A stretch of DNA of 31,953 bases from a virus, in the IMG/VR virus record IMGVR_UViG_3300050821_003171, positions 1 through 31,953 of that record. The stretch is one strand, 5' to 3'. The position numbers and the translations under genes were made by a program. Positions 6,688-31,935 of this stretch are shown here, piece by piece. How positions within the stretch are numbered: position 1 is the first letter of the stretch; each line of letters begins with the position of its first letter. The notes under the pieces are model-generated. The model saw only the letters and a program-made list of their open reading frames with translations, made no database searches and had not been told where the DNA came from.

Positions 6688-7179
6688 TTACTCCGCATTG
6701 CTACTTAGGGATGGAGGCCATTCTGTCTCAAACCACCAGCCGCGCAGGATGCGTCCTTTGCCGTCGAAGTTGGTTTCCGGCATTCCTTTGCCCTGAACCT
6801 TCTTGTGGGCCTTCCAGGCTTTCCACTGGTCTGTATCGACCTCCACAAAAACGCTCGCTGGCGGCCTTCCCTGGCCGTTTGTGGTGGGTTGTTCTGGCTC
6901 ATAGTCCTCCCAGCGGCGTCCATTGAGCCAAGTAAGAGCGTGGGCAATGAAGGGGGTGTTGATTTTGTCTGACTCCTGAGCGGCGTATGCTTTGGCGCCA
7001 GCGATAATCTTATCCGCATCTTCCCCGGAATCCACTAGCTTGGTGAACTTTTTTTTCGCTTGAGCTTTCGGGTTTGCGCCTTTGCGTTTTGGATAAGCGA
7101 GCCAGAATTGGTCAAAGGAATCTAGCTTGGCGGTGGTAGCTGCATGTTCGATTTGGCTGCGTGTGGTTTTATAGCCCAT
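6688..7179 (-). CDS. Phage replication protein, replisome-organiser C-terminal type
   Basis: A 163-residue protein. The stretch 'FDQFWLAYPKRKGANPKAQAKKKFTKLV' and the later 'TPFIAHALTWLNGRRWEDYE' are characteristic of the C-terminal half of phage replication initiators/helicase-loading proteins (lambda O/DnaT-like annotations). Here the usual N-terminal winged helix is missing; a DnaA domain IV protein is encoded just downstream and may supply the DNA-binding part. I chose the ATG at 7179 (GAGG 6-7 nt upstream) over the overlapping GTG at 7182. Confidence 0.75.
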   Translation of the reverse strand: MGYKTTRSQIEHAATTAKLDSFDQFWLAYPKRKGANPKAQAKKKFTKLVDSGEDADKIIAGAKAYAAQESDKINTPFIAHALTWLNGRRWEDYEPEQPTTNGQGRPPASVFVEVDTDQWKAWKAHKKVQGKGMPETNFDGKGRILRGWWFETEWPPSLSSNAE

Positions 7180-7181
7180 CA

Positions 7182-7445
7182 CTAGCCTCGCTTATCGAGT
7201 TGGGCGCGAGCCTTCTGGATAGCAATAATGTATGGATCACCAGCAACATCATGCATTTCCTCGTTAGTCAGGTTCCGTAGCATCAGGTCATCGCCAAAGG
7301 CCATCAGGTGGCCACAGCGGATACAAACGGAAATATCTCCGGGCTTGGGCATTTTATCGTCTCCCACGCAGGTGGCGCCGTCCAGTTTGTGACCACAGGC
7401 TGTGCATGGACTTTCAGGAACGGTTCTGTCGCTTCCTACTTTCAT
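7182..7445 (-). CDS. Zinc-ribbon phage protein
   Basis: An 87-residue protein with five cysteines in zinc-ribbon spacing: CTAC (14, 17), Cys26 and CIRC (41, 44), followed by a short helix. The ATG at 7445 has GGAG 7 nt upstream and is preferred over GTG codons further up. It sits between the structured region and the replication genes. Function unknown, probably nucleic-acid or protein binding. Confidence 0.75.
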   Translation of the reverse strand: MKVGSDRTVPESPCTACGHKLDGATCVGDDKMPKPGDISVCIRCGHLMAFGDDLMLRNLTNEEMHDVAGDPYIIAIQKARAQLDKRG

Positions 7446-7950
7446 CTTAATCTCCACCACCTGACCTTGAGTTGTTATGGCCCATGACCGGACATAGGAC
7501 GACCAGCCCCAACTAAATGAGGCTGTTCCTAGTCCGGGGAACCTGACCTTCGAGCGTCAGACCCACTTACGGACGCCAATCTACCGGGGACGGCGATTGG
7601 CTTGGCACCAACTTTTCAGAGCAATTCCCCGCTCTGCTGACTGCCCCATCGCGCCTTTCGGACCGGGGCCGCGCTGCGTCAGGCCCCCCGGTAGCGCATT
7701 GTTATCAGTCGCCCCGGCGTTTCTAACCGCCGACGACTGATCGAATGCCTTAGGTCCACAGGCATATTTTGCCCGCTGACTTGATTTTGTCTTGAATGAT
7801 TGGTATTGGTGAGTTGGTCATGACTGTCTCAGCAGTTATGGCCTGGAGACGCGAAGCGCCTTTCCAGGAGGTCGCCTTTTATAGAGGCGACCTCCTTCTA
7901 TTTAGACACAGATTTGATTGTTCAGCAAGCCGCTACTGATTGTGTTATAG
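7446..7950. ncRNA. Highly structured non-coding region: candidate structured RNA or replication origin
   Basis: No convincing gene in 505 nt. Hairpins follow one another: 7488-7537 (CCGGAC/GTCCGG, then TAGGA/TCCTA past a bulged A, then AGCC/GGCT), 7543-7560 (CTGAC/GTCAG), 7575-7601 (GCCAAT/ATTGGC), 7617-7636 (CAGAGC/GCTCTG), 7663-7691 (CCGGGGCC with a 2-nt bulge opposite), 7704-7741 (ATCAGTCG/CGACTGAT enclosing CGGCG/CGCCG), 7745-7765 (ATGCC/GGCAT), 7819-7840 (CATGACTG/CAGTTATG), 7842-7868 (CCTGGA/TCCAGG enclosing CGC-GAA-GCG) and 7866-7896. It lies between two DnaA domain IV genes. The coding strand of any RNA is undecided. I find no tmRNA, RNase P or group I/II intron signature. Confidence 0.7.
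7866..7904 (+). terminator. Strong hairpin, terminator-like on the plus strand
   Basis: AGGAGGTCGCC (7866-7876) pairs perfectly over 11 bp with GGCGACCTCCT (7886-7896). On the plus strand it is followed by TCTATTT, a partial T-tract; on the minus strand no T-tract follows. This favours a plus-strand RNA ending here, but three bases are shared with the preceding hairpin (7842-7868), so the two may be alternatives. Confidence 0.45.
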
Positions 7951-8337: not shown

Positions 8338-8555
8338 TTGGGGTTGGCCGTAAAGAATCTATGGTGCTTGCCGGGGATAGGTTCAACTGTAGTGGAGTCA
8401 AAGCCAAGTTCATCACCAAGCTTAGCCCACGCCCGGTTGGCGTTCTCTTGGGGCGAGTCAAACATGGGCGTCCCGCCGCTCAGGAACATTGCGGGCTTAC
8501 AGGCATCAAGCAGCGTTGATAGCTGTTTGTCGGTCATCTCATACTCGGTGCGCAT
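8334..8555 (-). CDS. Conserved small phage protein
   Basis: A 73-residue protein containing 'LLDACKPAMFLSGGTPMFDSPQENANRAWAKLGDELGFDSTTVEP', a pattern I recognise as a conserved hypothetical in phages of several proteobacteria. GGAG precedes the start by 6 nt and the ATG overlaps the GcrA stop (TAATG). Function unknown. Confidence 0.75.
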   Translation of the reverse strand: MRTEYEMTDKQLSTLLDACKPAMFLSGGTPMFDSPQENANRAWAKLGDELGFDSTTVEPIPGKHHRFFTANPK

Positions 8556-9019
8556 TAGATTCTCCGTTGATAGAATCGCTCAAAGTGTCCCTGACAGAAT
8601 GAGGTCTTACCTACTGTCGGCGCCCCACAGAAGATCACCAACCGATGCTGGCTATCGTCACGACCAATAATGGCGCGGCAGTGGCCAAGGCTGGCATCCA
8701 GAATCGACACCCCCTCAAATAGCGGAATAGCAATAGGCGATTCCACAATAGGGGTGGGCGCCAGCTTAGCGGTTGATCGCGTGTGCGGCGAGTAGTTGAC
8801 TGGCCGCTTGTTGCGGCTGCCCTTGGGGCGGCCTTGTCTCAGGTCTTTTCTCACGGCGAACTCCACGCCTTGGCCCCTCATCCGGTGAACTCTGCCAAGA
8901 ATAGCATTCCTGGTAAATTGTGGACCCAATGCGGCGGCGATTTCTCTCGACGGGATGCCTTCGGCCCATAGCTGAATTAATAATTGTTCGTTGGAGCTAG
9001 TCCAGGTTGGAATCGTCAT
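8555..9019 (-). CDS. gcrA: GcrA-type cell-cycle regulator homologue
   Basis: A 154-residue protein. The N-terminal 50 residues carry the GcrA helix-turn-helix: 'LLIQLWAEGIPSREIAAALGPQFTRNAILGRVHRM', compare TRNAVIGKVHRL in GcrA. A basic linker (GRPKGSRNKRP) follows, and the C-terminus 'FCGAPTVGKTSFCQGHFERFY' matches the cysteine/histidine-containing end that binds RNA polymerase sigma region 2 in Caulobacter GcrA. GcrA acts with sigma70 at promoters carrying CcrM-methylated GANTC. The phage copy could redirect host transcription. Start 9019 is preferred; 9043 is possible. Confidence 0.85.
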   Translation of the reverse strand: MTIPTWTSSNEQLLIQLWAEGIPSREIAAALGPQFTRNAILGRVHRMRGQGVEFAVRKDLRQGRPKGSRNKRPVNYSPHTRSTAKLAPTPIVESPIAIPLFEGVSILDASLGHCRAIIGRDDSQHRLVIFCGAPTVGKTSFCQGHFERFYQRRI

Positions 9020-9200
9020 ATTTTTGACTCTTAGCTCTTTCAAGATCGGCTACGTTCCAATATCGGAAATCTTCAAGCCTCGTGTCTAAGCATACACCCC
9101 CCGCAGTATCTTTCATCAAATAAAGAACTTTTGCTTTCGGTCTGGGGCGTTTTCTGGTAAGATTGCGTTTCAAATACACCACTGTTCCTTGCCTAATCAT
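8997..9200 (-). CDS. Hypothetical small basic protein
   Basis: A 67-residue protein starting MIRQGTVVYLKRNL. GGAGG lies 4 nt before the ATG, which shares bases with the HNH stop (TGATG). It is beta-rich with a basic patch (RNLTRKRPRPKAK) and might be a small SH3-like nucleic-acid binder. Its 3' end overlaps the gcrA start by 23 bp. Confidence 0.65.
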   Translation of the reverse strand: MIRQGTVVYLKRNLTRKRPRPKAKVLYLMKDTAGGVCLDTRLEDFRYWNVADLERAKSQKYDDSNLD

Positions 9201-12147: not shown

Positions 12148-12549
12148 TTAAGCCACCATGCTAGAGGGACGAACTCCGATAACCCGATGGTAAATATGCG
12201 AGCGTTTCTTGTATTTTCGGCTTCCTTGCTGCTTGCCTGTCGCTTTGGATGGCTGAATCCGATAGATGGGATAATCTCCCGGTTCAAATTTGCCACCTTT
12301 ATCGAAGGCAATCAGTTCACTGCGGAGCGCATCCGAAGTAAGATAGCGCACCCACTTACCGTTGTTACGTAGGTAGGTTCGTCCAAGATGAACCCGCGCC
12401 TCAGCAACATGCATTTGGCGCCGACAAGCTATCGCGGCGGCGCAGGAGTCAGGTTTCTTTTTCTTGGCCTTTGATATGTCGCCATCGGTGATATGCAAAA
12501 TCACCGACTTTTTCGCATTGACGACAATCTTCTCGTCAATAATATGCAT
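12148..12549 (-). CDS. Hypothetical basic protein
   Basis: A 133-residue protein starting MHIIDEKIVVNAKKS. GGAG lies 6 nt before the ATG. It is rich in Lys and Arg (SKAKKKKPDS; RKYKKRSHIYHRV), suggesting nucleic-acid binding. The central part 'ARVHLGRTYLRNNGKWVRYLT' looks like a small beta domain. A 3' frame (12093-12311) in the same stretch is a shadow. Function unknown. Confidence 0.65.
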   Translation of the reverse strand: MHIIDEKIVVNAKKSVILHITDGDISKAKKKKPDSCAAAIACRRQMHVAEARVHLGRTYLRNNGKWVRYLTSDALRSELIAFDKGGKFEPGDYPIYRIQPSKATGKQQGSRKYKKRSHIYHRVIGVRPSSMVA

Positions 12550-15029: not shown

Positions 15030-15069
15030 CCGGTCACTCCAAAATGCGGGGAGCGAAGCGGGGCACTAC

Positions 15070-15110
15070 ATCCCCTTCTTCTTCTCGAAGAGAAGGAAGA
15101 AGAAGGGGAT
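15070..15110 (-). promoter_or_regulatory. Long gap hairpin with a GAA loop
   Basis: ATCCCCTTCTTC (15070-15081) pairs with GAAGAAGGGGAT (15099-15110), and TTCTC (15082-15086) pairs with GAGAA (15090-15094) around GAA. Four bases (GGAA, 15095-15098) bulge out on one side. The same plan, with different sequence, occurs at 16466-16504 and 18504-18547. It lies in the gap before the gene starting at 15029. Confidence 0.75.
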
Positions 15111-15126
15111 GGTGGAGCGGCATTAT

Positions 15127-16425: not shown

Positions 16426-16465
16426 GGTCCTGCTCCGCGTTGTGGTGGGGGTTGTCGAGGCTCTT

Positions 16466-16504
16466 GATCTTGTCTGTCCTCGAAGAGGACGGACAGACAA
16501 GATC
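16466..16504 (-). promoter_or_regulatory. Long gap hairpin with a GAA loop
   Basis: GATCTTGTCTGTCC (16466-16479) pairs perfectly over 14 bp with GGACAGACAAGATC (16491-16504). Alternatively GTCCTC (16476-16481) pairs with GAGGAC (16485-16490) around GAA, with the outer 10 bp kept and four bases (GGAC) bulged. Same plan as 15070-15110. It lies in the gap before the gene starting at 16425. Confidence 0.75.
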
Positions 16505-16527
16505 AGTTTTCCAGCGGCTTTAGGAAT

Positions 16528-18463: not shown

Positions 18464-18503
18464 GGTCGTTTTTCTCCGTGTTGAGAGGGCACTACTACAG
18501 CTT

Positions 18504-18547
18504 CCTCCTATTCTTGTTCTCGAAGAGAACAGAACAAGAATAGGAGG
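18504..18547 (-). promoter_or_regulatory. Long gap hairpin with a GAA loop
   Basis: CTCCTATTCTTG (18505-18516) pairs with CAAGAATAGGAG (18535-18546), and TTCTC (18517-18521) pairs with GAGAA (18525-18529) around GAA; five bases (CAGAA) bulge. Same plan as 15070-15110. It lies before the gene starting at 18463. Confidence 0.75.
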
Positions 18548-18561
18548 GGTTTGGCGGTGTT

Positions 18562-18786
18562 TTAGGCTATAGGGTTGTCATGGCCGAGAAGCGTGGCGAC
18601 GCAGTTTTCCGCCCACGGATTCTCGCCGCCGCGAGATCGCAACCAAGCCAAGAGGCTTGGGGCATCGAGTTCGGCAATGTCGAAGCTAGCCCATACGCCA
18701 GCGACGCTTTTAGCGCGAACGTAGATGCCGGTATCCATCGTATTGGCAACACGATCTGGATCAGCAGTTAATTCAACCGCATCCAT
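18562..18786 (-). CDS. Hypothetical small protein
   Basis: A 74-residue protein starting MDAVELTADPDRVANTMDTG. AGGAGA lies 7 nt before the ATG. 'VWASFDIAELDAPSLLAWLRSRGGENPWAE' is a pattern I have seen in small proteins of tailed phages; function unknown. Confidence 0.65.
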   Translation of the reverse strand: MDAVELTADPDRVANTMDTGIYVRAKSVAGVWASFDIAELDAPSLLAWLRSRGGENPWAENCVATLLGHDNPIA

Positions 18787-18826
18787 GATTTTCTCCTGTG
18801 AATTGCGGGCGAAGCCGCTGATTTCA

Positions 18827-18925
18827 CTAGCAAAACATCATCCAAAGGATGATGATGCTGATGGCGACGAAAGTGACGGCGCCACCAGCAACGTAGCCAG
18901 CTATGGCTGATGCGAGTTCACTCAT
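18827..18925 (-). CDS. Short single-helix membrane protein
   Basis: A 32-residue frame beginning MSELASAIAGYVAGGAV and continuing as a hydrophobic helix to the end (SIIILWMMFC). The ATG overlaps the stop of the upstream gene (ATGA), which supports translation. It could be a small membrane peptide such as a holin accessory, but no family is recognised. Confidence 0.5.
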   Translation of the reverse strand: MSELASAIAGYVAGGAVTFVAISIIILWMMFC

Positions 18926-19182
18926 GGGATTGCCTCACATAGCGCGGCTAAAACGTCGCCGTGGCAAGCCAAGGGCTTGCAGAAGCAAACGAGCGTTTTG
19001 CCCTTCAATTCTGGAATTGCGGCCAGCAACTTGGGCTGACCAGCTAAATAGCTCGCATACTTGCGAATCACGTCATCACGCGAGCCATCCTTGCCGATCA
19101 CGAACGGATTGCCCCATTTGCTTGGGCGGCCGATATACACGTCATTCGACGTTGGCTTGTGATTGCGCTTATTCACGACCAT
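18922..19182 (-). CDS. DUF4326 family protein
   Basis: An 86-residue protein. 'NDVYIGRPSKWGNPFVIGKDG' followed by 'LKGKTLVCFCKPLACHGDVLA' is the signature of DUF4326, a short family common in phages and of unknown function; the conserved Cys/His (CFCKPLACHGD) could bind metal. The start follows the leader CCACGGAGAACTGCG. Length is normal for the family. Confidence 0.85.
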   Translation of the reverse strand: MVVNKRNHKPTSNDVYIGRPSKWGNPFVIGKDGSRDDVIRKYASYLAGQPKLLAAIPELKGKTLVCFCKPLACHGDVLAALCEAIP

Positions 19183-19201
19183 CGCAGTTCTCCGTGGGTG
19201 T

Positions 19202-19242
19202 GTCCTTATCCTGCCTCTCACAAGAGAGAGGCAGGAAAGGAC
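19202..19242 (-). promoter_or_regulatory. Long gap hairpin
   Basis: GTCCTT (19202-19207) pairs with AAGGAC (19237-19242), and CCTGCCTC (19210-19217) with GAGGCAGG (19228-19235), enclosing TCACAAGAGA. This is the fourth member of the class at 15070, 16466 and 18504, with a slightly different loop. It lies before the gene starting at 19182. Confidence 0.7.
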
Positions 19243-19256
19243 GTTCGGTGTGGTAT

Positions 19257-19691: not shown

Positions 19692-19717
19692 TGGGTTTCT
19701 CCGGTGTTGGCATCGAA

Positions 19718-19779
19718 GTCTGTCTTAAAGAAAGACCTCACAAAGTGAGCGAAGCGTAGGGTCTTTCTTTAAGATAGAC
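19718..19779. promoter_or_regulatory. Very long hairpin between divergent genes
   Basis: GTCTGTCTTAAAGAAAGACC (19718-19737) pairs over 20 bp (one G-T) with 19760-19779. The 22-nt loop holds a small inner hairpin (TCAC/GTGA) and GCGAAGC, a sequence known to form unusually stable DNA mini-hairpins. It lies in the 196-nt gap between divergent minus and plus genes, so it could be a terminator of stray transcripts or a control element. The rest of this gap shows no clear promoter. Confidence 0.65.
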
Positions 19780-19887
19780 GTAGATTGATAGAGTGATCCT
19801 TTCCTTAAGGTTTTCCTTGTGCCGCAGCGGTTTTCGTGGTTTGTTCTGGCAAGGGGAAAGAGGGTTGGAAGATAGGAGATCGCGCGC

Positions 19888-23480: not shown

Positions 23481-24485
23481 CTACCATAAGGGGTCGCCGC
23501 GCTTATAATCTTTTTTGGCTCTTTTCCCCAGCATCTTGGAATAGTTCTTCGGCGGCATTCCAAAGCCCGGCCGGATCGAGCGTATGTTCAGTTCGGTGAA
23601 CTGCTCGCCTTCTCGTATGTCCTCGATAACATAAAGGCTTCTGCGGAATTGCCGTGATGGATTCGCAGGCTGCTCATGCTCCAGCCCCGCGCTCCAGGCT
23701 TGCTTGACGGCCGTGACCATGCCCGCAAACTCGGCCGGTGTCAGGCTAAACGCATCGTCCTCGCTTGGGGGCGCCAATCGCAGTTTGAGGTGCTTCTCAA
23801 TGATCGCCGCCCCCATCGCGGTCGCCATGATCGGCAACAGATGCCCGCTGCTATGATCGGACAGCCCTACAGGGCACTCTTTGTGGAGCAGTTCGTATAT
23901 CCTATGGACGCGCCACATATCGGCATTGTCGGTATCGGCTGGATACTCGCTGGTGCAATGCAGGAACGCGGAGTTGGGACCAGCCGCCTCGCGCGCTTCT
24001 CTTATTTCTTGGTTGTTGGCGAGGCCCGTCGAGATGATGATTGGTTTATCTGTCTTAGCTGCGTACTCGATAAGATGTAGGTCGGCCACTTCAAAGCTCG
24101 CAATCTTATATGCCGGACAGCCGAGAGATTGGAGTAGGTCGATCCCACTGCGGTCGAACACCGAAGAAAAGATCGTAATGCCTTCGTCATGGGCGACACT
24201 GTATAGCTCCTTGTGCCATTCCGGTGGAGTACAAGCGGATTGATAAAGTTCGTATAGCGTCTTGCCCTGCCATAGACCGCCCTGTACGATGAAGTCCAGC
24301 TTGTTGCAGTTCAACGTCAATGTATCAGCGTTGTAGCATTGCGTCTTGACCGCAGCCGCTCCAGCTTTCTTGGCTTCTTTGATAAGCTGTTTGGCGCGTT
24401 CTAGGCTACCACCGTGATTGCCTGATATTTCACAAACAATATAAGGGAAGGCACACTGAGCGATCTCGGTCTTAGCGATCATCAT
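23481..24485 (-). CDS. pseI: Pseudaminic/sialic acid synthase family protein
   Basis: A 334-residue protein, normal length for the family. The TIM-barrel part shows 'VCEISGNHGGSLERAKQLI', 'AAAVKTQCYNADTLTL', 'LYELYQSACTPPEWH', 'PAYKIASFEVADLHLI', 'PIIISTG', 'HCTSEYPA' and 'GLSDHSSGH'; a C-terminal antifreeze-like SAF domain follows ('RRSLYVIEDIREGEQF'). It condenses phosphoenolpyruvate with a 6-carbon amino sugar to make a 9-carbon nonulosonic acid. The LYELY/TPxEWH segment resembles PseI more than NeuB. The start overlaps the upstream gene by 14 bp. Confidence 0.85.
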   Translation of the reverse strand: MMIAKTEIAQCAFPYIVCEISGNHGGSLERAKQLIKEAKKAGAAAVKTQCYNADTLTLNCNKLDFIVQGGLWQGKTLYELYQSACTPPEWHKELYSVAHDEGITIFSSVFDRSGIDLLQSLGCPAYKIASFEVADLHLIEYAAKTDKPIIISTGLANNQEIREAREAAGPNSAFLHCTSEYPADTDNADMWRVHRIYELLHKECPVGLSDHSSGHLLPIMATAMGAAIIEKHLKLRLAPPSEDDAFSLTPAEFAGMVTAVKQAWSAGLEHEQPANPSRQFRRSLYVIEDIREGEQFTELNIRSIRPGFGMPPKNYSKMLGKRAKKDYKRGDPLW

Positions 24486-24804
24486 CAAGATTACCCGTTA
24501 ATATATTGGTGGCAGTCTTGGCGTATTGAATTTCCATAAACCGCACGGCATATTCATACTGAGAAATGCCAGATATTCTGGCAGCTTCTTTTTGGTCTGG
24601 AGTCAAAAGTTTTGCTAACCGCTGTTCTCTTTTCTCTCGGTGATACCAGTTTTGATTAAGCTGCTCTTTGCATTGCCCTAATTCCTTTTCAAGACTTTCG
24701 ATTCTACTTAGAAGCTTAACAATGTACTTGGCAACCTTGTCGTCGCTTGCCTTCTTTTGTGCGGGCTTGATCCTTTGGTTGCGTTTTTTTATTGCGATTT
24801 TCAT
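24472..24804 (-). CDS. Hypothetical phage protein
   Basis: A 110-residue protein with a basic N-terminus (KKRNQRIKPAQKK), a charged coiled helix, and a conserved-looking end 'LTPDQKEAARISGISQYEYAVRFMEIQ'. That end resembles phage proteins often found near head genes. It overlaps neighbours on both sides inside the sugar cluster, so it is co-expressed with it. Confidence 0.65.
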   Translation of the reverse strand: MKIAIKKRNQRIKPAQKKASDDKVAKYIVKLLSRIESLEKELGQCKEQLNQNWYHREKREQRLAKLLTPDQKEAARISGISQYEYAVRFMEIQYAKTATNILTGNLDDDR

Positions 24805-25190
24805 GATTTCTTATATCCTTTCAACAATTGCTTATCTCGCAGCCGTTGCTGTATTTCCTGTTTTATCTTTTCTCTCTCTATAAAGACTAGGATGGCTTCT
24901 TCTTTAGAATTAACAGTACAATCCCCAGAAAAGCAGTATTTGCCATCTGGGCTATATATTACATAAGATACCGTGCTATCAGTGAGCATCCCGTAGCAGA
25001 CCGGATAAGTTGCCATCAGGAAATAATCTTTACTTGTGGCATACTTTTCAGTTTCTTCGATTTCCGTTACCCATGTAACAATAGGTTCTAGGAATATTTC
25101 TGGCCCTCTTTCAGCGTCTCCGGGGATAAATTCTGCAACGCAGAAGCCGGGAAGGGCTGAGGTTACGAATCTTTGCTTAATGGCACTCAT
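24801..25190 (-). CDS. Hypothetical protein within the sugar cluster
   Basis: A 129-residue protein starting MSAIKQRFVTSALPGFCVAE. AGGAG lies 8 nt before the ATG, which overlaps the aminotransferase stop (ATGA). The first 95 residues look like a beta-rich domain ('FLMATYPVCYGMLTDSTVSY'); the end is a charged helix. Not a recognisable hydrolase or acetyltransferase, so it does not obviously replace PseG or PseH. Confidence 0.65.
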   Translation of the reverse strand: MSAIKQRFVTSALPGFCVAEFIPGDAERGPEIFLEPIVTWVTEIEETEKYATSKDYFLMATYPVCYGMLTDSTVSYVIYSPDGKYCFSGDCTVNSKEEAILVFIEREKIKQEIQQRLRDKQLLKGYKKS

Positions 25191-26302
25191 AGGCTTTCTC
25201 CTGCTATCTTGATGATGCGCTTCATCTTGGATACTTCGCTGGTATTCGGGCGCCACATGCAAATCTCGAAGCTGACCAGTTCCCTGTCCTCCATGCGTTC
25301 GGTCAGTGGACACTGATCGTTGGTTTTGAATAACCTATGCAAAGGTATGGAATAGCCAGCACGTACCGGAAAGCAGTGCTTGTTGAGAAAGGTCACGAAC
25401 GCTTCCCGCTTGCCATCCAATACCCTGCACGCCCAAATGTAATAGACATGCTTGCAGCCCTTCGATTCCACCGGAGGAATCAGGTAGGCCGATTGATTCG
25501 CAGCGTCGGTAAGTTCATCTGCCAGATGGCGCCGATTCTCGATAATGTCGTGCGCCCTATGTAGCTGCGCCGAGGCAATCGCAGCTATTGGCTCCGTCAT
25601 TCGCAGGTTGAGTCCGATGGAGGGGTTTTTGGCAGCCAGTTCTCCATGATTAACTGCGTTTCTAACTCTCTCAGCACTTTCTGCATCGTTTGTCGTAACC
25701 ACTCCTCCCTCTCCAGATTGGATGTGCTTGTGGACGTTGAAGCTAAAGACGCCGTAGTGTCCGATGGTCCCTGCATATTTACCGTTCTCCATTGCGAAGG
25801 GTGATTGAGCGTTATCCTCGATCATGACGATGCCATTATCGTCGCATGTTCTGCGTATCTGCGCTAAGTAGGCGGGGTGCCCGAATAGGTTGGTAACGAT
25901 GATCGCTTTTGGCTTTGTTGTCCAAGAGGTAGGGCTATTGAGAGAATAGCGTACCAAGTCTATGTCGATGAATTTAACACTGGCACCCAATACTTTGGCA
26001 CAGGCCCCAGACGCGGACATAGTGTACGAGGATGCCCAAACTTCATCTCCGGGGCCAATAGAAGCTGCCATGCAACAAGCCAACAAACCCGAGGTAGCTG
26101 AATTGCAGGGTATAGCGTATCGGCATCGAAACGTGTTGGTCCACTCGACGGAGAGGCGGTCAACCCAGTAACCAGCATTATGGATACCGCCAACATAGCC
26201 AGATAGCTGCCGCCCAAGCGCGCGTTGCACATTCCTTCTCTCCTGTGATCCTACCGTGAAGAATTTAGGTAGCCGCTTTAGTGTTGGAGCTTTTCTAGCC
26301 AC
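25187..26302 (-). CDS. pseC: PseC-like DegT/DnrJ/EryC1/StrS aminotransferase
   Basis: A 371-residue PLP enzyme. The pyridine-binding Asp163 lies in 'IEDNAQSP' and the Schiff-base lysine is Lys192 in 'FNVHKHIQSGEGG'. In the pseudaminic pathway such an enzyme aminates C4 of the 4-keto sugar made by PseB. The start is GTG with AAGGAG 8 nt upstream, overlapping the small gene before it. Exact substrate is inferred from the neighbouring PseB and PseI. Confidence 0.85.
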   Translation of the reverse strand: MARKAPTLKRLPKFFTVGSQERRNVQRALGRQLSGYVGGIHNAGYWVDRLSVEWTNTFRCRYAIPCNSATSGLLACCMAASIGPGDEVWASSYTMSASGACAKVLGASVKFIDIDLVRYSLNSPTSWTTKPKAIIVTNLFGHPAYLAQIRRTCDDNGIVMIEDNAQSPFAMENGKYAGTIGHYGVFSFNVHKHIQSGEGGVVTTNDAESAERVRNAVNHGELAAKNPSIGLNLRMTEPIAAIASAQLHRAHDIIENRRHLADELTDAANQSAYLIPPVESKGCKHVYYIWACRVLDGKREAFVTFLNKHCFPVRAGYSIPLHRLFKTNDQCPLTERMEDRELVSFEICMWRPNTSEVSKMKRIIKIAGESL

Positions 26303-26457
26303 CCGGAAATCTCCTTATCGTTTTCGTTGATAGCCTGTAAGATTTTCTTGGCTTCTTTAGGCTTGGCCTTCATGGCTAATGTAAGGAGACTCATCCAGAG
26401 AAAATTATTGCGTGATCGAACCTGAGTGATTTCGTTTATGATGTTCTCAGGCTTCAT
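26278..26457 (-). CDS. Hypothetical 59-residue protein
   Basis: Starts MKPENIINEITQVRSRNNFL and ends EKLQH. AAGGA lies 8 nt before the ATG. It overlaps pseB by 11 bp and pseC by 25 bp, so it is translated within the sugar operon. Entirely helical and basic in the middle (KAKPKEAKK). Function unknown; too small for an enzyme of the pathway. Confidence 0.65.
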   Translation of the reverse strand: MKPENIINEITQVRSRNNFLWMSLLTLAMKAKPKEAKKILQAINENDKEISGWLEKLQH

Positions 26458-27388
26458 TGAGCGATTCCTTGAGTTGTTCTATACTGAGCCATTGATGATT
26501 GGTGTCAGAGGTGTAGGTAAAGTCAGGCGTGACTGGGATTCCAGAGCCGATCTGACCTTGCCATCCAGGATGGGTGATAATGTAGTAATCGCCCATATCG
26601 AGCGTATCGCGCGCCTCATCCCTGGTCAGGAGACACTCATGCAGCTTCTCTCCTGGCCTGATGCCGGTGACTTCCCATGCCGGAGATATGGCCAGCGCCA
26701 AGTCCATGATCTTTACGGACGGAATCTTCGGGATGTAAATCTCTCGCCCGGTCATCTTGGTGTGAGCAAGCCGGACCAGATCGACCGCTTGATCCAGCGT
26801 GATCCAGAACCGCGTCATGCGCGTATCGGTAACTGTCAGTGGCTTCCCGGCGGCGGCAAGAGACTTAAAATAAGGAACAACGCTCCCACGGCTACCCACG
26901 ACATTACCGTAACGTACAACGCTGAAAGCAGTTGCGCCCGCAGCGAGAGCATTGGCGGCAATGAAGATTTTCTCCGCCGCCAGCTTCGATGCCCCGTAAA
27001 GGTTGATCGGGTGGACCGCCTTATCCGTGGACAGGGCGATGACTCGTTTAACTCCGCTGTTGATGGCGGCTCTAACGACATTCTGGGCACCACCGATATT
27101 GGTCGCAACACATTCGGTGGGGTTATACTCCAAAGCAGGCACAATCTTTAGTGCTGCTGCATGGATAACCGTATCAATGTCGTGCATAGCGTATTCGAGG
27201 CGGTCCTGGTCGCGCACATCTCCTAGGAAGAATCGAAAGAATCGCTGCGGGAATCGCCGTGCCATTTCTTCCTGCTTCTGCTCATCGCGCGAATAGATCA
27301 CCACGCGCTCAGGGTTATGGGCTATAATGCGTCGTGCGAACGCATTGCCAAACGAACCTGTGCCACCCGAAATTAAGACTTTCTTCAT
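26447..27388 (-). CDS. pseB: PseB-like UDP-GlcNAc 4,6-dehydratase
   Basis: A 313-residue short-chain dehydrogenase. The NAD(P)-binding GGTGSFG is at 8-14; the catalytic Asp122-Lys123 and Tyr131-xxx-Lys135 lie in 'STDKAVHPINLYGASK'. 'YSRDEQKQEEM', 'HAAALKIVPALEYNP' and 'TNIGGAQNV' are typical of PseB (FlmA), which makes the 4-keto-6-deoxy sugar that starts the pseudaminic pathway. Its ATG overlaps the fusion gene stop (ATGA), so it is probably translated by coupling. Confidence 0.9.
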   Translation of the reverse strand: MKKVLISGGTGSFGNAFARRIIAHNPERVVIYSRDEQKQEEMARRFPQRFFRFFLGDVRDQDRLEYAMHDIDTVIHAAALKIVPALEYNPTECVATNIGGAQNVVRAAINSGVKRVIALSTDKAVHPINLYGASKLAAEKIFIAANALAAGATAFSVVRYGNVVGSRGSVVPYFKSLAAAGKPLTVTDTRMTRFWITLDQAVDLVRLAHTKMTGREIYIPKIPSVKIMDLALAISPAWEVTGIRPGEKLHECLLTRDEARDTLDMGDYYIITHPGWQGQIGSGIPVTPDFTYTSDTNHQWLSIEQLKESLNEA

Positions 27389-29424
27389 GCTGTGGTCCGC
27401 AGCGGCGCCACACCGATGAGCGGAGCATCTATGTAGTCGGAGATGTTGTTGTTCTCCAAAGCCTGATTGATCGTGGTCAAAGCTCGATTGTAAGCAGTGA
27501 GGATGCGCTTAACCTCGTTCTGTTTAATAGCGTAGGAGACATTGTGCGAGGCAATGACTAGCACGCCCCCCTGGATCATCTCCTGCATGAACAGAGCCTT
27601 GATTTCTTCCTTAGTGGCGTTCCTGTGGTCGTGGATATTGATGATTTTGCGTGTCCAGTGGCCGTCTAGTTTGATAACGTCTTGAAGGCCATGGAAAGCA
27701 ATGCTTGGGGCAACTTCAGAATGAATCTCTGCCCCAACGTGATAGAGGTAGCCAATAACATCCTCTTTTTCCATTTTCTTGATTGTAGCTATTGCGGCAG
27801 AAATAGAGAGGGTTTCACCGAACATCGTGCCGGAATAGAAGATGTTGTTCGGTGGTGACATGCGAGCCATTATGTCACGCTTGCCGACGAGGGCCGAAAT
27901 CGGCATCCCATTAGCCATCGCCTTGCCGAAGGTGGCTAAATCTGGTGTTACGTTCCAGTACGCTTGGGCGCCACCGATGTGATAACGGAAGCCGGTAATG
28001 ATTTCATCGAAGATCAGAACGACATTGTGTTCGTCGCAGGCTTCACGCAGGAACTTTAGGTATTCTGGATTGCTGTCCGGTTCGACAATGATCGCAGCGG
28101 CATCGCCAATCCAGCGATTCAGTTCTTCGTCGTTGTAGTTACCGTACTCGAATTTGTGTGATAGAAGCTTGGTGGCCAACGGAATCCCAGCGTCGCGCTG
28201 ACTCGCCGCCATAGACCAATCTGCCCAGCCATGATAGCCGGACAACAGAACGTGGCTCTTGCCTGTATAGGCTCGCGCTAGACGAATGGCAGCAGTGGTA
28301 ACGTCCGTTCCTGATTTGCCGAGTTTGACCGCTTGTGCGCACGGTATAAGTCGGCAGAGGGTTTCCGATAGCTCCGCTTCAAGCTCAGTCGCGAGACTGA
28401 AGGAAATTCCTCGGTCCAGTTGCAGTCGAATTGCGTCATCCACATCAGGATCACGGTAGCCAAGTACAACAGGCAGCACAGCGTTAACCAAGTCAACGTA
28501 ATCGTTTCCGTCAACATCAAAGAGCCTAGCCCCATCAGCATGGCTGCAATAAAGAGGACTATGATCGCGCGGAAACTGAAGGTGAGACTTCGAGAATGTC
28601 TGCGCCCCAAATGGTATAGTCTTGATGGCTCGCTTGAATACTCCCGCAGTCCGCTCAAATGTTCGTGGGGGTAATCGCTCTGTGTTGATTGCTTCAAAGA
28701 ATCGCTCATTGCGGATTCCTGGGTTGAGTTTACGAATCTCGGGATGTTCATCGAGGATGTTGAGTATTTTAAGATAGGGTTGACCACCACAGCGGATATG
28801 CTCCGCTACTGCTTTGCAGAAGTTCCAGTCAGCTTCGGTATCGAGAACCCAGCGCTCCTTATCTAGCCCAGGCAGAGGACACCGTAGATTAGCAGCGCTA
28901 AAGCGATGGCGATTACGAACGATAAACTGAGTAACGCAATCTCGGTCTGTTGGTCGAGTCGCTTCTTCCCAAGCGGCTTCCAAAGCCTTGAAGGTGAAGC
29001 ATTCAACATCGAGTCCATCGGGGTAGCTTGGGGGATCAATGTTTGAGGTGTAATCGGCATTGGTTATGTTCCTAAGCTTGATGACTTCGCCAATAACTTG
29101 AGGGTCAAGGAATGGGCAGTCGCAGGTTAATCTCAAGACTATATCAGCATCATAACGAAGCGCACATTGATAGAATCGGTCCAGCACATCCAGCGCACTG
29201 CCACGAAAGAATGGAATCGCGGTATCTCTACAGTACCCCGCAATAATATTATCCTCTGACAAAGTAGAGGTAGCTATAACGGCTTGGTCGATGCCTTCAG
29301 CTTGGATAAGGGCGTCGTACACCCAATGTAAGACTGGAAGGTTATACTCTCCCATCCTCCGCATAACCTTGCCGGGCACGCGCGTTGAACCCATCCGAGC
29401 CTGCGCAATCGCTAAGACCTTCAT
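27385..29424 (-). CDS. Fusion: SpsF-type cytidylyltransferase + class III aminotransferase
   Basis: A 679-residue two-domain protein. Residues 1-245 are a nucleotidyltransferase of the SpsF/CMP-sugar type (AQARMGSTRVPGKV at 7-20; 'RLTCDCPFLDP' about 98-108). Residues about 262-665 are a glutamate-1-semialdehyde-aminotransferase-like PLP domain: SGTDVTTAAIRLAR (371-384), YHGW (397-400), FDEI (472-475), catalytic Lys501 in FGKAMANGMP. The first domain probably activates the nonulosonic acid with CMP; the second may move an amino group on the sugar. The start at 29424 overlaps the upstream gene by 4 bp. Confidence 0.85.
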   Translation of the reverse strand: MKVLAIAQARMGSTRVPGKVMRRMGEYNLPVLHWVYDALIQAEGIDQAVIATSTLSEDNIIAGYCRDTAIPFFRGSALDVLDRFYQCALRYDADIVLRLTCDCPFLDPQVIGEVIKLRNITNADYTSNIDPPSYPDGLDVECFTFKALEAAWEEATRPTDRDCVTQFIVRNRHRFSAANLRCPLPGLDKERWVLDTEADWNFCKAVAEHIRCGGQPYLKILNILDEHPEIRKLNPGIRNERFFEAINTERLPPRTFERTAGVFKRAIKTIPFGAQTFSKSHLQFPRDHSPLYCSHADGARLFDVDGNDYVDLVNAVLPVVLGYRDPDVDDAIRLQLDRGISFSLATELEAELSETLCRLIPCAQAVKLGKSGTDVTTAAIRLARAYTGKSHVLLSGYHGWADWSMAASQRDAGIPLATKLLSHKFEYGNYNDEELNRWIGDAAAIIVEPDSNPEYLKFLREACDEHNVVLIFDEIITGFRYHIGGAQAYWNVTPDLATFGKAMANGMPISALVGKRDIMARMSPPNNIFYSGTMFGETLSISAAIATIKKMEKEDVIGYLYHVGAEIHSEVAPSIAFHGLQDVIKLDGHWTRKIINIHDHRNATKEEIKALFMQEMIQGGVLVIASHNVSYAIKQNEVKRILTAYNRALTTINQALENNNISDYIDAPLIGVAPLRTTA

Positions 29425-29585
29425 TCTTCGTTTTTCCTCTCGAATTTCTTGCACCAGCCGCCAGCCTTGATGCGGCCCTCAACCACAGCGCAGATCACAG
29501 GCGAGACGTAATGTTTGCAGATCGAGCAGTGTTCCTGCTTTGTACCGTGATCGGTATATTGGACGGAGTATTTAGAGGCTTTCAT
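29421..29585 (-). CDS. HiPIP-like small cysteine protein
   Basis: A 54-residue protein starting MKASKYSVQYTDHGTKQEHC. The pattern CSICKHY-x4-C-x11-GGWCKKF matches the small high-potential-iron-sulfur-like proteins often encoded near phage head genes; four cysteines could hold a 4Fe-4S cluster. It is coupled by 4-bp overlaps to both neighbours. Its role is unknown. Its position inside the sugar cluster is odd. Confidence 0.7.
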   Translation of the reverse strand: MKASKYSVQYTDHGTKQEHCSICKHYVSPVICAVVEGRIKAGGWCKKFERKNEE

Positions 29586-29881
29586 GACCGTGTTCGTTTG
29601 GTAGTTAGCTGCATACTCTTGCACAGGAAGAGGATGCGATTAGCCTCGCGTAGAATCGCATTGTGTGTTTCTATCGTCATCTCTCCTGTAGGACCGCCAT
29701 AGCTGAAGCCAATGATATTCTTGGCGTGTGACTTAATCAGGAGTTGGATTTCGGGGTCGGTGTAGATTCCGAAGGCGGCGTCCAAGGAATCGAGTGGGCG
29801 AACGTCTCGCTCGATAGTCCGGCTAGGCGGCGCGCTTGGAGGCATATTTCTAGGGCGGCCAACCCTTCTTTTGCGTTGCAT
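29582..29881 (-). CDS. Hypothetical phage protein with AT-hook-like N-terminus
   Basis: A 99-residue protein starting MQRKRRVGRPRNMPP, where RKRRVGRPR resembles an AT-hook DNA-binding motif. GGAG lies 8 nt before the ATG. The gene overlaps the 3' end of the oxidoreductase gene by 145 bp in another frame; outside the overlap it reads as a normal protein ('YGGPTGEMTIETHNAILREA'). A shorter start (29845) would reduce the overlap only slightly. Confidence 0.6.
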   Translation of the reverse strand: MQRKRRVGRPRNMPPSAPPSRTIERDVRPLDSLDAAFGIYTDPEIQLLIKSHAKNIIGFSYGGPTGEMTIETHNAILREANRILFLCKSMQLTTKRTRS

Positions 29882-30690
29882 CCGATTGTCTCCTTGCCAT
29901 CTATGCGGTCAATAAAAGCCCGTATTTCCTCTACATAGTTCTGATCGAAGCTGTCGTCTCCGCGATGGACGTATTCACCTAGCGAGGCATTGCGCCCAAC
30001 AAGGTCCATACCAATCCTGTTATTGGCGCCGACAATCCAAGCCTCACGAATCTCAGGCTTGGTTACATAGTCCAAGTGGATGGATGATCGAGCGCCGCTG
30101 TCATGTTGTAGCCAAATGTCGGCTATATCCTCACCGGAACCTGTGACACGAGCGGAAGCCTGTAACACCTTCGCTGGACCCAGTAGGTACAGCGCCAGAT
30201 CAATCTCATGCGACCAGTTGAGGATTACACCGTCGCGGAGGTAGTCGAGCTTGTCGTTCTTCTGCCCCACCACGAAGCTCGCCCATTGAATCTGGCCAAG
30301 AATACCGTTGTCGAGCCACTCCTTGGCTTTCTTAACGCAGGAATGGAAGCGCAGATTGTAGCCAACCATAAATGGATCGCGTCCCATGACCGATCCCAAG
30401 AAGTGACACTTCTCGGTATCTCCTATGGGCTTTTCAACGAAGATCGGTTTCCTGGCAAAGAGGCCTTTAACGAGATGCTCATAATGCAGTGCCGTGGGGC
30501 TGCATATGAGAATAGCATCGGCATTGTTAATTAAGTCTTGTTCATCGTGCATTGCTATGAATGGTGGCGCCGACTTGGGGATAGGATTGCTTGGATCAAA
30601 GGTTAGGACCTTGTGACCAAGCCGCACGAGATTCTGTGCATGGCGCTTTCCAATAGAACCGTGGCCGAGAATCCCGAATGTCTTGGTCAT
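29737..30690 (-). CDS. Gfo/Idh/MocA family oxidoreductase
   Basis: A 317-residue protein. The N-terminal Rossmann motif is 'GILGHGSIGKRHAQNLVRLG'; 'FVEKPIGDTEKC' carries the conserved EKP lysine, and 'NWSHEIDLALYLLGPAK' fits the C-terminal catalytic domain. Such enzymes oxidise or reduce sugar derivatives with NAD(P). In this cluster it probably modifies the amino sugar or the nonulosonic acid. The last 50 residues share DNA with the next gene and look less conserved (SIPWTPPSESTPTPKSNS). Confidence 0.85.
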   Translation of the reverse strand: MTKTFGILGHGSIGKRHAQNLVRLGHKVLTFDPSNPIPKSAPPFIAMHDEQDLINNADAILICSPTALHYEHLVKGLFARKPIFVEKPIGDTEKCHFLGSVMGRDPFMVGYNLRFHSCVKKAKEWLDNGILGQIQWASFVVGQKNDKLDYLRDGVILNWSHEIDLALYLLGPAKVLQASARVTGSGEDIADIWLQHDSGARSSIHLDYVTKPEIREAWIVGANNRIGMDLVGRNASLGEYVHRGDDSFDQNYVEEIRAFIDRIDGKETIGCNAKEGLAALEICLQARRLAGLSSETFAHSIPWTPPSESTPTPKSNS

Positions 30691-31373
30691 TGTGTAAACT
30701 CAGGTATCGTGCCGTCTGGTTTATGAAACGAACGAGTCATGTCTTTCTGTAACAATGTGACCATAACTTGGCAGGCAACGGTTTTACCTAATTCACAAGG
30801 TCCGGTGCCTTCTGCGACGGCAAAGTAGCCGGGGTGACTGAGCCACATTTTGGCGTGGTCATAGACCCAGGCTCGGCATTCCTTTTCGCGAATGGACGCT
30901 TTGGCTGGGGCGTATTCCCAAACCAAAGGTCGGGCGCTGATGTAATCGTAATGGGCGATGTGCCCTTTATCTGCTAGAACACGATTGGCCTCAGCCATGA
31001 TCTGGAACCAAGAATTTGGTTCACAGAGAAACATAAAGTAGCCGAATATCACCAGATCGAAGCTGTTGGCATCAAATGGTATGTGTTGGGCGACCCCCAC
31101 CTGTAGATCGCCACCTAAATCCTTCGATCCTTCTTGGATAGCCATAGTCGAGGGATCAATGCCTCGTACATGACAGTTGTAGAGTCCCTTGAGCTTCATG
31201 AGGCGCCAGCCATTAGCGCAGCCTATTTCCAGTATGGATGTAGGCTTAATTTCGGTGGCTTTTAGTATCGAGAGAACCGGGTCCTTTTCCTTTTGGCCGA
31301 AATCATTGCGATTGCGCATGTAGTAATCATCGCCAGCGCCATGCAGGAATCTCTCGGTTTGGCTAGCGGCCAT
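30687..31373 (-). CDS. SAM-dependent methyltransferase
   Basis: A 228-residue class I methyltransferase. Motif I is ILEIGCANG (47-55), followed by 'VRGIDPSTMAIQEG' (acidic SAM-ribose residue) and 'IPFDANSFDLVIFGYFMFLCE' (motifs III-IV). It lies between the formyltransferase and the oxidoreductase, overlapping both by 4-11 bp, so it probably methylates the same sugar. The ribosome site is GGAAG about 9 nt before the start. Confidence 0.85.
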   Translation of the reverse strand: MAASQTERFLHGAGDDYYMRNRNDFGQKEKDPVLSILKATEIKPTSILEIGCANGWRLMKLKGLYNCHVRGIDPSTMAIQEGSKDLGGDLQVGVAQHIPFDANSFDLVIFGYFMFLCEPNSWFQIMAEANRVLADKGHIAHYDYISARPLVWEYAPAKASIREKECRAWVYDHAKMWLSHPGYFAVAEGTGPCELGKTVACQVMVTLLQKDMTRSFHKPDGTIPEFTQ

Positions 31374-31935
31374 TGGCTTTTCTTCCGAGTGCCATTACAT
31401 CTGCGACAGGAGTTTTCCAGCCGAGCGGGAATCGCGCCATCCATTGCTCTTTGTCTTTGGACCTATGGTAGGTGCCCCCCTCATTAGGGCGGCCTCGGGG
31501 CAGCTTACCTTTGTACTTAAAGTTTTCCCAGAGAATACCAAAGAGATATACGGCGTGGTTCTGCAAGATGCCGTATGATGACTCCAGTGTTCCGATTGGA
31601 TCGAGGGTCATATCAACTGTGCCGTTAAAGATGATCGGTCCAGAATCTATACCATCATCTATGTGATGGATGGAGACGCCATGTGGAGTATTATCAAACC
31701 ACGCCCAGAAATTCGGATCGGCGCCGCGATTCCATGGTAATAGGCTGAGGTGGATGTTTATTATCCGTCCTTTGTATTCGGATAAGTACGGCTCTCTTAT
31801 GATCTCGCGGTGTCCATAGGAGATAACGAAATCGACGTTTGGCCAGTGAATTTTGGAGACGAGAGGAACAACATCATCATCTCGCAAAATATCTGCAAGG
31901 CGCTCTGGGTAGGGCGAAAGCAGCAGAACCTTCAC
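31363..31935 (-). CDS. Formyltransferase-fold protein
   Basis: A 190-residue protein. The catalytic triad of the formyltransferase family is visible: Asn60 and His62 in 'INIHLSLLPWNRG' and Asp97 in 'HIDDGIDSGPI'. The family transfers formyl from N10-formyl-tetrahydrofolate; it includes sugar N-formyltransferases and methionyl-tRNA formyltransferase. It lacks the C-terminal tRNA-binding domain, so a sugar amine is the likely acceptor. The start shown is GTG at 31935; the N-terminus could extend past the window. N-formylated pseudaminic acids are known. Confidence 0.8.
   Translation of the reverse strand: MKVLLLSPYPERLADILRDDDVVPLVSKIHWPNVDFVISYGHREIIREPYLSEYKGRIINIHLSLLPWNRGADPNFWAWFDNTPHGVSIHHIDDGIDSGPIIFNGTVDMTLDPIGTLESSYGILQNHAVYLFGILWENFKYKGKLPRGRPNEGGTYHRSKDKEQWMARFPLGWKTPVADVMALGRKANGR

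Follow-up and report, generated by a model that had tools for sequence, protein, structure and literature searches.

What might a phage keep in a stretch of about 500 nt amid its replication genes that holds no credible reading frame? The window analysed here is a virus record of 31,953 bases, and the gap under study covers positions 7446-7950 if the adjoining 92-aa gene starts at ATG (7445, after GGTGGAG), or 7461-7950 if it starts at GTG; the former extent was used for the analysis. Genes in this window are tightly packed, and a gap of 500 nt stands out among them. All ORFs touching it are tiny (59 aa or less) and none is convincing, which bears out the description of the stretch as non-coding in an earlier note on this DNA. 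The same note had placed it between two genes for DnaA domain IV (DnaA-IV) proteins; one of these indeed adjoins the gap, but the other lies two genes away. In transcription order, the block consists of the GcrA-like protein, a 73-aa protein, DnaA-IV, the gap, the 92-aa CxxC protein, P4, and the second DnaA-IV protein, and in the left half of the window almost every gene is on the minus strand. Because a GcrA-like protein is encoded in the window, the virus is probably a phage of alphaproteobacteria. The reading we favour, at a probability of roughly 0.6, is that the gap represents an independent gene for a noncoding RNA on the plus strand, probably specifying a large folded trans-acting RNA, and the positional counterpart of a noncoding RNA gene found in related phages. 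The features concerned are summarized in Table 1.

Table 1. Features in and around the gap, with coordinates in the window, strand and supporting evidence
Feature	Position	Strand	Evidence
Putative ncRNA gene, antisense to the surrounding operon	about 7450-7905	+	no credible ORF; fold z −6.7; plus-strand terminator; helices 7461-7896
Domain I, 11-bp closing helix 7461-7471/7549-7560	7461-7560	+	pair probabilities 0.94-0.97
Domain I, inner helices	7488-7499/7527-7537 and 7504-7511/7518-7525	+	pair probabilities 0.94-0.97
Domain II, multi-branched, 15-bp long-range closing helix 7565-7581/7798-7814	7565-7814	+	pair probability 0.97 on +, 0.00 on −
Three-part hairpin within domain II	7696-7748	+	pair probability 0.93-0.99, both strands
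Hairpin within domain II	7750-7784	+	pair probability 0.93
12-bp CATGACTG hairpin, three G-U pairs on +	7816-7843	+	pair probability 0.98 on +, 0.20 on −
14-bp intrinsic terminator, AGGAGGTCGCC.. stem, tail TCTATTTAG	7866-7896	+	terminator scan; faces against the operon
Second DnaA domain IV protein, 127 aa	6299-6682	−	Bac_DnaA_C, E 1e-19
Replication-initiator-like protein P4, syntenic anchor	6688-7182	−	phrog_270, E 1.6e-23
92-aa protein with two CxxC pairs, other flank of the gap	7182-7460	−	ORF list; no Pfam match
DnaA domain IV protein, 128 aa	7951-8337	−	Bac_DnaA_C, E 2.9e-18; adjoins the gap
GcrA-like protein, in the conserved block	8555-9043	−	GcrA, E 4.3e-17

The gap folds far more strongly than its composition predicts. 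For the plus strand, a fold energy of −200.6 kcal/mol was obtained, compared to −159.2 ± 6.2 kcal/mol in dinucleotide shuffles (z −6.7), and for the minus strand −209.3 compared to −168.0 ± 6.8 kcal/mol (z −6.1); none of 100 shuffles equalled the native value on either strand. In 250-nt steps along the window, strong folding was also reached at 12501, 16001 and 18501-19250, placing the gap among the best-folded stretches, though not alone. All hairpins that had been named earlier are present in the gap sequence. The three-part stem combines ATCAGTCG (7704-7711/7734-7741), CGGCG/CGCCG on its inner side and GCATT/AATGC on its outer side, and a CGCGAAGCG loop is located at about 7851-7859. In the plus-strand ensemble, the closing helices of domains I and II, the 12-bp hairpin and the terminator together span 7461-7896.

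The strand of the putative gene was judged from several features of unequal weight. According to the terminator scan, the gap has a single terminator-like site, located on the plus strand; on the minus side, this hairpin is followed by GGAAAGG and its tail, GGAAAGGCG, is not T-rich. In the left part of the window, no upstream plus-strand gene is annotated that this terminator could serve. Both long-range closing helices (11 and 15 bp) occur with a probability of 0.97 in the plus ensemble and are absent from the minus ensemble. The G-U counts near the helices common to both strands (4 vs 7) do not favour the plus strand, and the strand assignment is therefore carried by the terminator. A promoter scan of the gap gave no sigma-70-type match. 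With an independent RNA gene as the preferred reading, transcription would start on the plus strand at about 7450, opposite to the surrounding operon, the RNA would form two closed domains and further hairpins, and the transcript would end at the intrinsic terminator (7866-7905).

Relatives of the phage were reached via the AAA ATPase, P4 and a ParB-like protein, and three of them (L042, L046 and L068) retain the block of GcrA, DnaA-IV, a RusA-like gene, a noncoding gap and P4. The syntenic gaps measure 474, 441 and 427 nt, respectively, and that of L042 recurs with identical sequence in L047-L049. In all three phages, a G+C-rich hairpin followed by a U-rich tail lies at the DnaA/RusA end of the gap and points against the operon as it does in the window; the hairpin of L042 was flagged by the terminator scan, while those of L046 and L068 were seen in the sequence, the one in L046 being passed over by the scanner. 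The RusA-like gene is located between DnaA-IV and the gap (L042:2994-3380, L046:4183-4545) and is absent from the window, where DnaA-IV adjoins the gap directly. Between L046 and L068, the gaps are 84-92% identical, compared to roughly 50-82% (mostly 60-75%) for the flanking genes. They differ by indels of 1, 1, 1, 1, 4 and 7 nt, which break any frame, and their substitutions lack codon periodicity; thus, it is not a protein that is under constraint. An array of about 22 tRNA genes adjoins the element on the same strand in L046 (5666-9278) and L068 (1304-5599), with tRNA-gene segments mostly 86-89% identical between the two phages. The RNAs of the relatives are not unusually stable (z −1.1 to −1.9 on the strand antisense to the operon). 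Two other candidate gap carriers, L076 and L077, were dismissed, as their P4 is fused into longer coding genes without a gap. L006, whose AAA ATPase makes it one of the closest relatives, was set aside too: its sequence stops short of the gap, and its weak match to the family model R1 is on the unexpected strand.

A search with R1, the covariance model for the family's 3' domain, revealed a fourth copy in the L004 phage record with 43.9 bits (E 5.5e-11). This copy (L097:4186-4321, minus strand; family member L097) is located in a gap of approximately 530 nt between an 83-aa gene and a gene which we take to encode the large terminase (terL), a label read from its translated sequence and not from a database match; the element lies upstream of terL and divergent from it. 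The location beside terL is a second genomic place for the element, which is therefore not tied to replication genes. Overall, a noncoding element of about 420-450 nt with a conserved 3' end occurs in four distantly related metagenome phages, and in three of them its place and orientation are as in the window. The family's 3' domain reads CCCATCGGT..CACCGATCACGCCCCCGGAG..CTCGCGGGGG, and a U-rich tail follows it. The 3'-terminal 120 nt or so align well in all four members and share a bulged G in the terminator stem, while the 5' parts do not align and the four-sequence alignment is unreliable there. Of 21 pairs in the 3' domain, one has changed on both sides, which was equalled by 116 of 500 shuffles, and covariation is too sparse to serve as evidence. 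Model R2 gave weak matches in L023, L011, L008 and G036 (E 0.03-0.08). The RNA family of the relatives is missing from Rfam.

How closely is the RNA of the window related to this family? When phage and plasmid records were searched with the gap by BLASTN, no match was obtained, its exact hairpin pattern did not occur in viral contigs, single-protein searches with DnaA-IV and the CxxC protein yielded no relatives, and neither did a bacterial genome scan with P4. Through these and the following model searches, the window's own RNA was left without a homologue in either sequence or structure. R1 and R2 did not match the gap, even when R2 was searched unfiltered, and R3, a model of the 3' part of the window RNA itself, did not match the relatives; membership by the conserved 3' domain is accordingly not supported. 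What the two have in common is their position between the DnaA-IV/RusA block and P4 (L097, beside terL, differs in this), their orientation, their length, and a terminator-like hairpin at the same end, directed against the operon. It is on position, strand, length and terminator that a possible link between the window RNA and the family rests. We regard the two, the window RNA and the relatives' gene of about 420-450 nt, as positional counterparts that may share common descent.

An antisense RNA at this site could also act in cis. As an OOP-like regulator, the plus-strand RNA would pair with operon mRNA continuing through the gap and so tune the downstream replication genes; its position and strand resemble those of lambda OOP (PMC5869508), and it would be perfectly complementary to any such minus-strand mRNA. 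However, the terminator stem in the window ends at 7896 and leaves about 50 nt up to the DnaA-IV stop (7951), so that coding sequence is not overlapped, a structured RNA of about 430-460 nt far exceeds OOP, and the family member of the L004 phage sits beside terL, outside the replication operon. We therefore consider such a regulator unlikely, although it is the strongest competitor of the favoured reading. Still less probable is a cis-regulatory leader or processing element of the operon mRNA on the minus strand, for instance as a leader of the 92-aa gene and P4. That strand carries all nearby genes and itself folds well (z −6.1), but the terminator tail is on the plus strand, the closing helix of domain II is predicted on the plus strand only, and one member of the relatives' family lies outside such an operon leader.

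The earlier note had treated a structured replication origin as an equal possibility to a large RNA. Such an origin would be recognised by the DnaA-IV proteins, and the flanking DnaA-IV and initiator-like genes would fit, but the scan returned no exact DnaA box and one with a single mismatch, no iterons were seen, the cumulative GC skew has its minimum near 15-19 kb and no extreme at the gap, and a family member is found beside terL, outside the replication block. This weakens the origin to the least probable of the readings considered. An unremarkable hairpin-rich spacer, in a phage rich in intergenic inverted repeats, is hardly more credible: several other intergenic hairpins and folded stretches do exist in the window, yet a 500-nt gap is unusual here, it combines long-range helices with a terminator, and a gap is kept at the same place in relatives. 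Between the two options of the earlier note, the large structured RNA is thus the better one in view of the plus-strand terminator, the coherent fold and the syntenic, conserved ncRNA-like element, although not as a GOLLD, ROOL or OLE RNA by Rfam. The favoured RNA gene would most likely act in trans as a structured RNA, as is thought for GOLLD- and ROOL-type phage RNAs, and not in cis on the replication genes.

Several other features of the window were recorded. Near-perfect intergenic inverted repeats, several of them about 40 nt long, are found at 15069-15111, 16465-16505, 18504-18547, 19202-19242 and 19712-19785, several of them with TTCTCGAAGAGAA-type centres and without a clear T tract on either side. 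They lie near a repeated TTTCTCCGTG motif (CACGGAGAAA on the minus strand) ahead of start codons and are perhaps processing or pausing sites. The second strongly folded stretch (18501-19250), with dE of −25 on the plus and −30 on the minus strand at 18501, overlaps ORFs. Genes of the sugar-nucleotide type occupy 23481-31935 (NeuB-like, DegT aminotransferase, cytidylyltransferase/aminotransferase fusion, oxidoreductase, methyltransferase, formyltransferase), which looks like a phage-carried surface-sugar or DNA-modification pathway.

With regard to known RNA families, Rfam at gathering threshold gave no match in the window to tmRNA, RNase P, group I or group II introns, GOLLD, ROOL or OLE, and ARAGORN together with Rfam detected neither tRNA nor tmRNA. 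The comparison with the GOLLD, ROOL and OLE models that had been proposed was run and returned nothing at E ≤ 10 in the gap and nothing at E ≤ 0.5 in the four relatives. Below the gathering threshold, matches were at chance level; the best of these, Betaproteobacteria-1 RNA (RF02932; 27.9 bits against a cut-off of 49.4), was on the minus strand, owed its score mainly to one hairpin, and was taken as chance.

GOLLD, ROOL and OLE RNAs form homo-oligomers (14-, 8- or 2-mer); ROOL is longer than the window RNA, and lambda OOP is several times shorter. GOLLD is a large phage-encoded RNA of ornate fold and unknown function, often encoded near tRNA islands, with a conserved 3' and a less conserved 5' region and many members above 800 nt (PMC12286853). 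The relatives' family resembles it in its conserved 3' and divergent 5' part and in the adjoining tRNA array of two phages, whereas the putative window RNA would be about 430-460 nt long and has no Rfam match. Proximity to a tRNA island is frequent but not universal for GOLLD and ROOL; no tRNA was detected in the window or in the G012 stretches searched, and approximately 22 tRNAs lie beside the element in L046 and L068. ROOL is a large structured RNA of phages and prophages, also often near tRNA islands (PMC12286853); the putative window RNA would share the large structured fold in a phage but, again, has no Rfam match. Lambda OOP is made leftward from pO, overlaps the 3' end of cII and ends at the terminator tO; like the putative window RNA, it is an antisense RNA with its own terminator, situated between a gene for a replication initiator and a regulatory gene upstream (PMC5869508). 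It differs in its coding overlap, which the window RNA lacks, and the relatives' family has a member elsewhere in its genome. It is a tentative and rather doubtful suggestion that phages of about 75 kb, probably of alphaproteobacteria, carry an undescribed class of large trans-acting GOLLD-like RNAs, with a conserved 3' domain, a fast-changing 5' domain and a tRNA array as neighbour, of which the window would hold a highly diverged and more ornately folded member. Few RNAs of unknown function are as striking as GOLLD and ROOL, and the gap adds a further candidate, whose fold and terminator predict clearly what stranded RNA-seq and chemical probing should show. The syntenic family, which changes more slowly than the adjacent proteins, offers another, smaller system for asking what role large phage RNAs play in infection.
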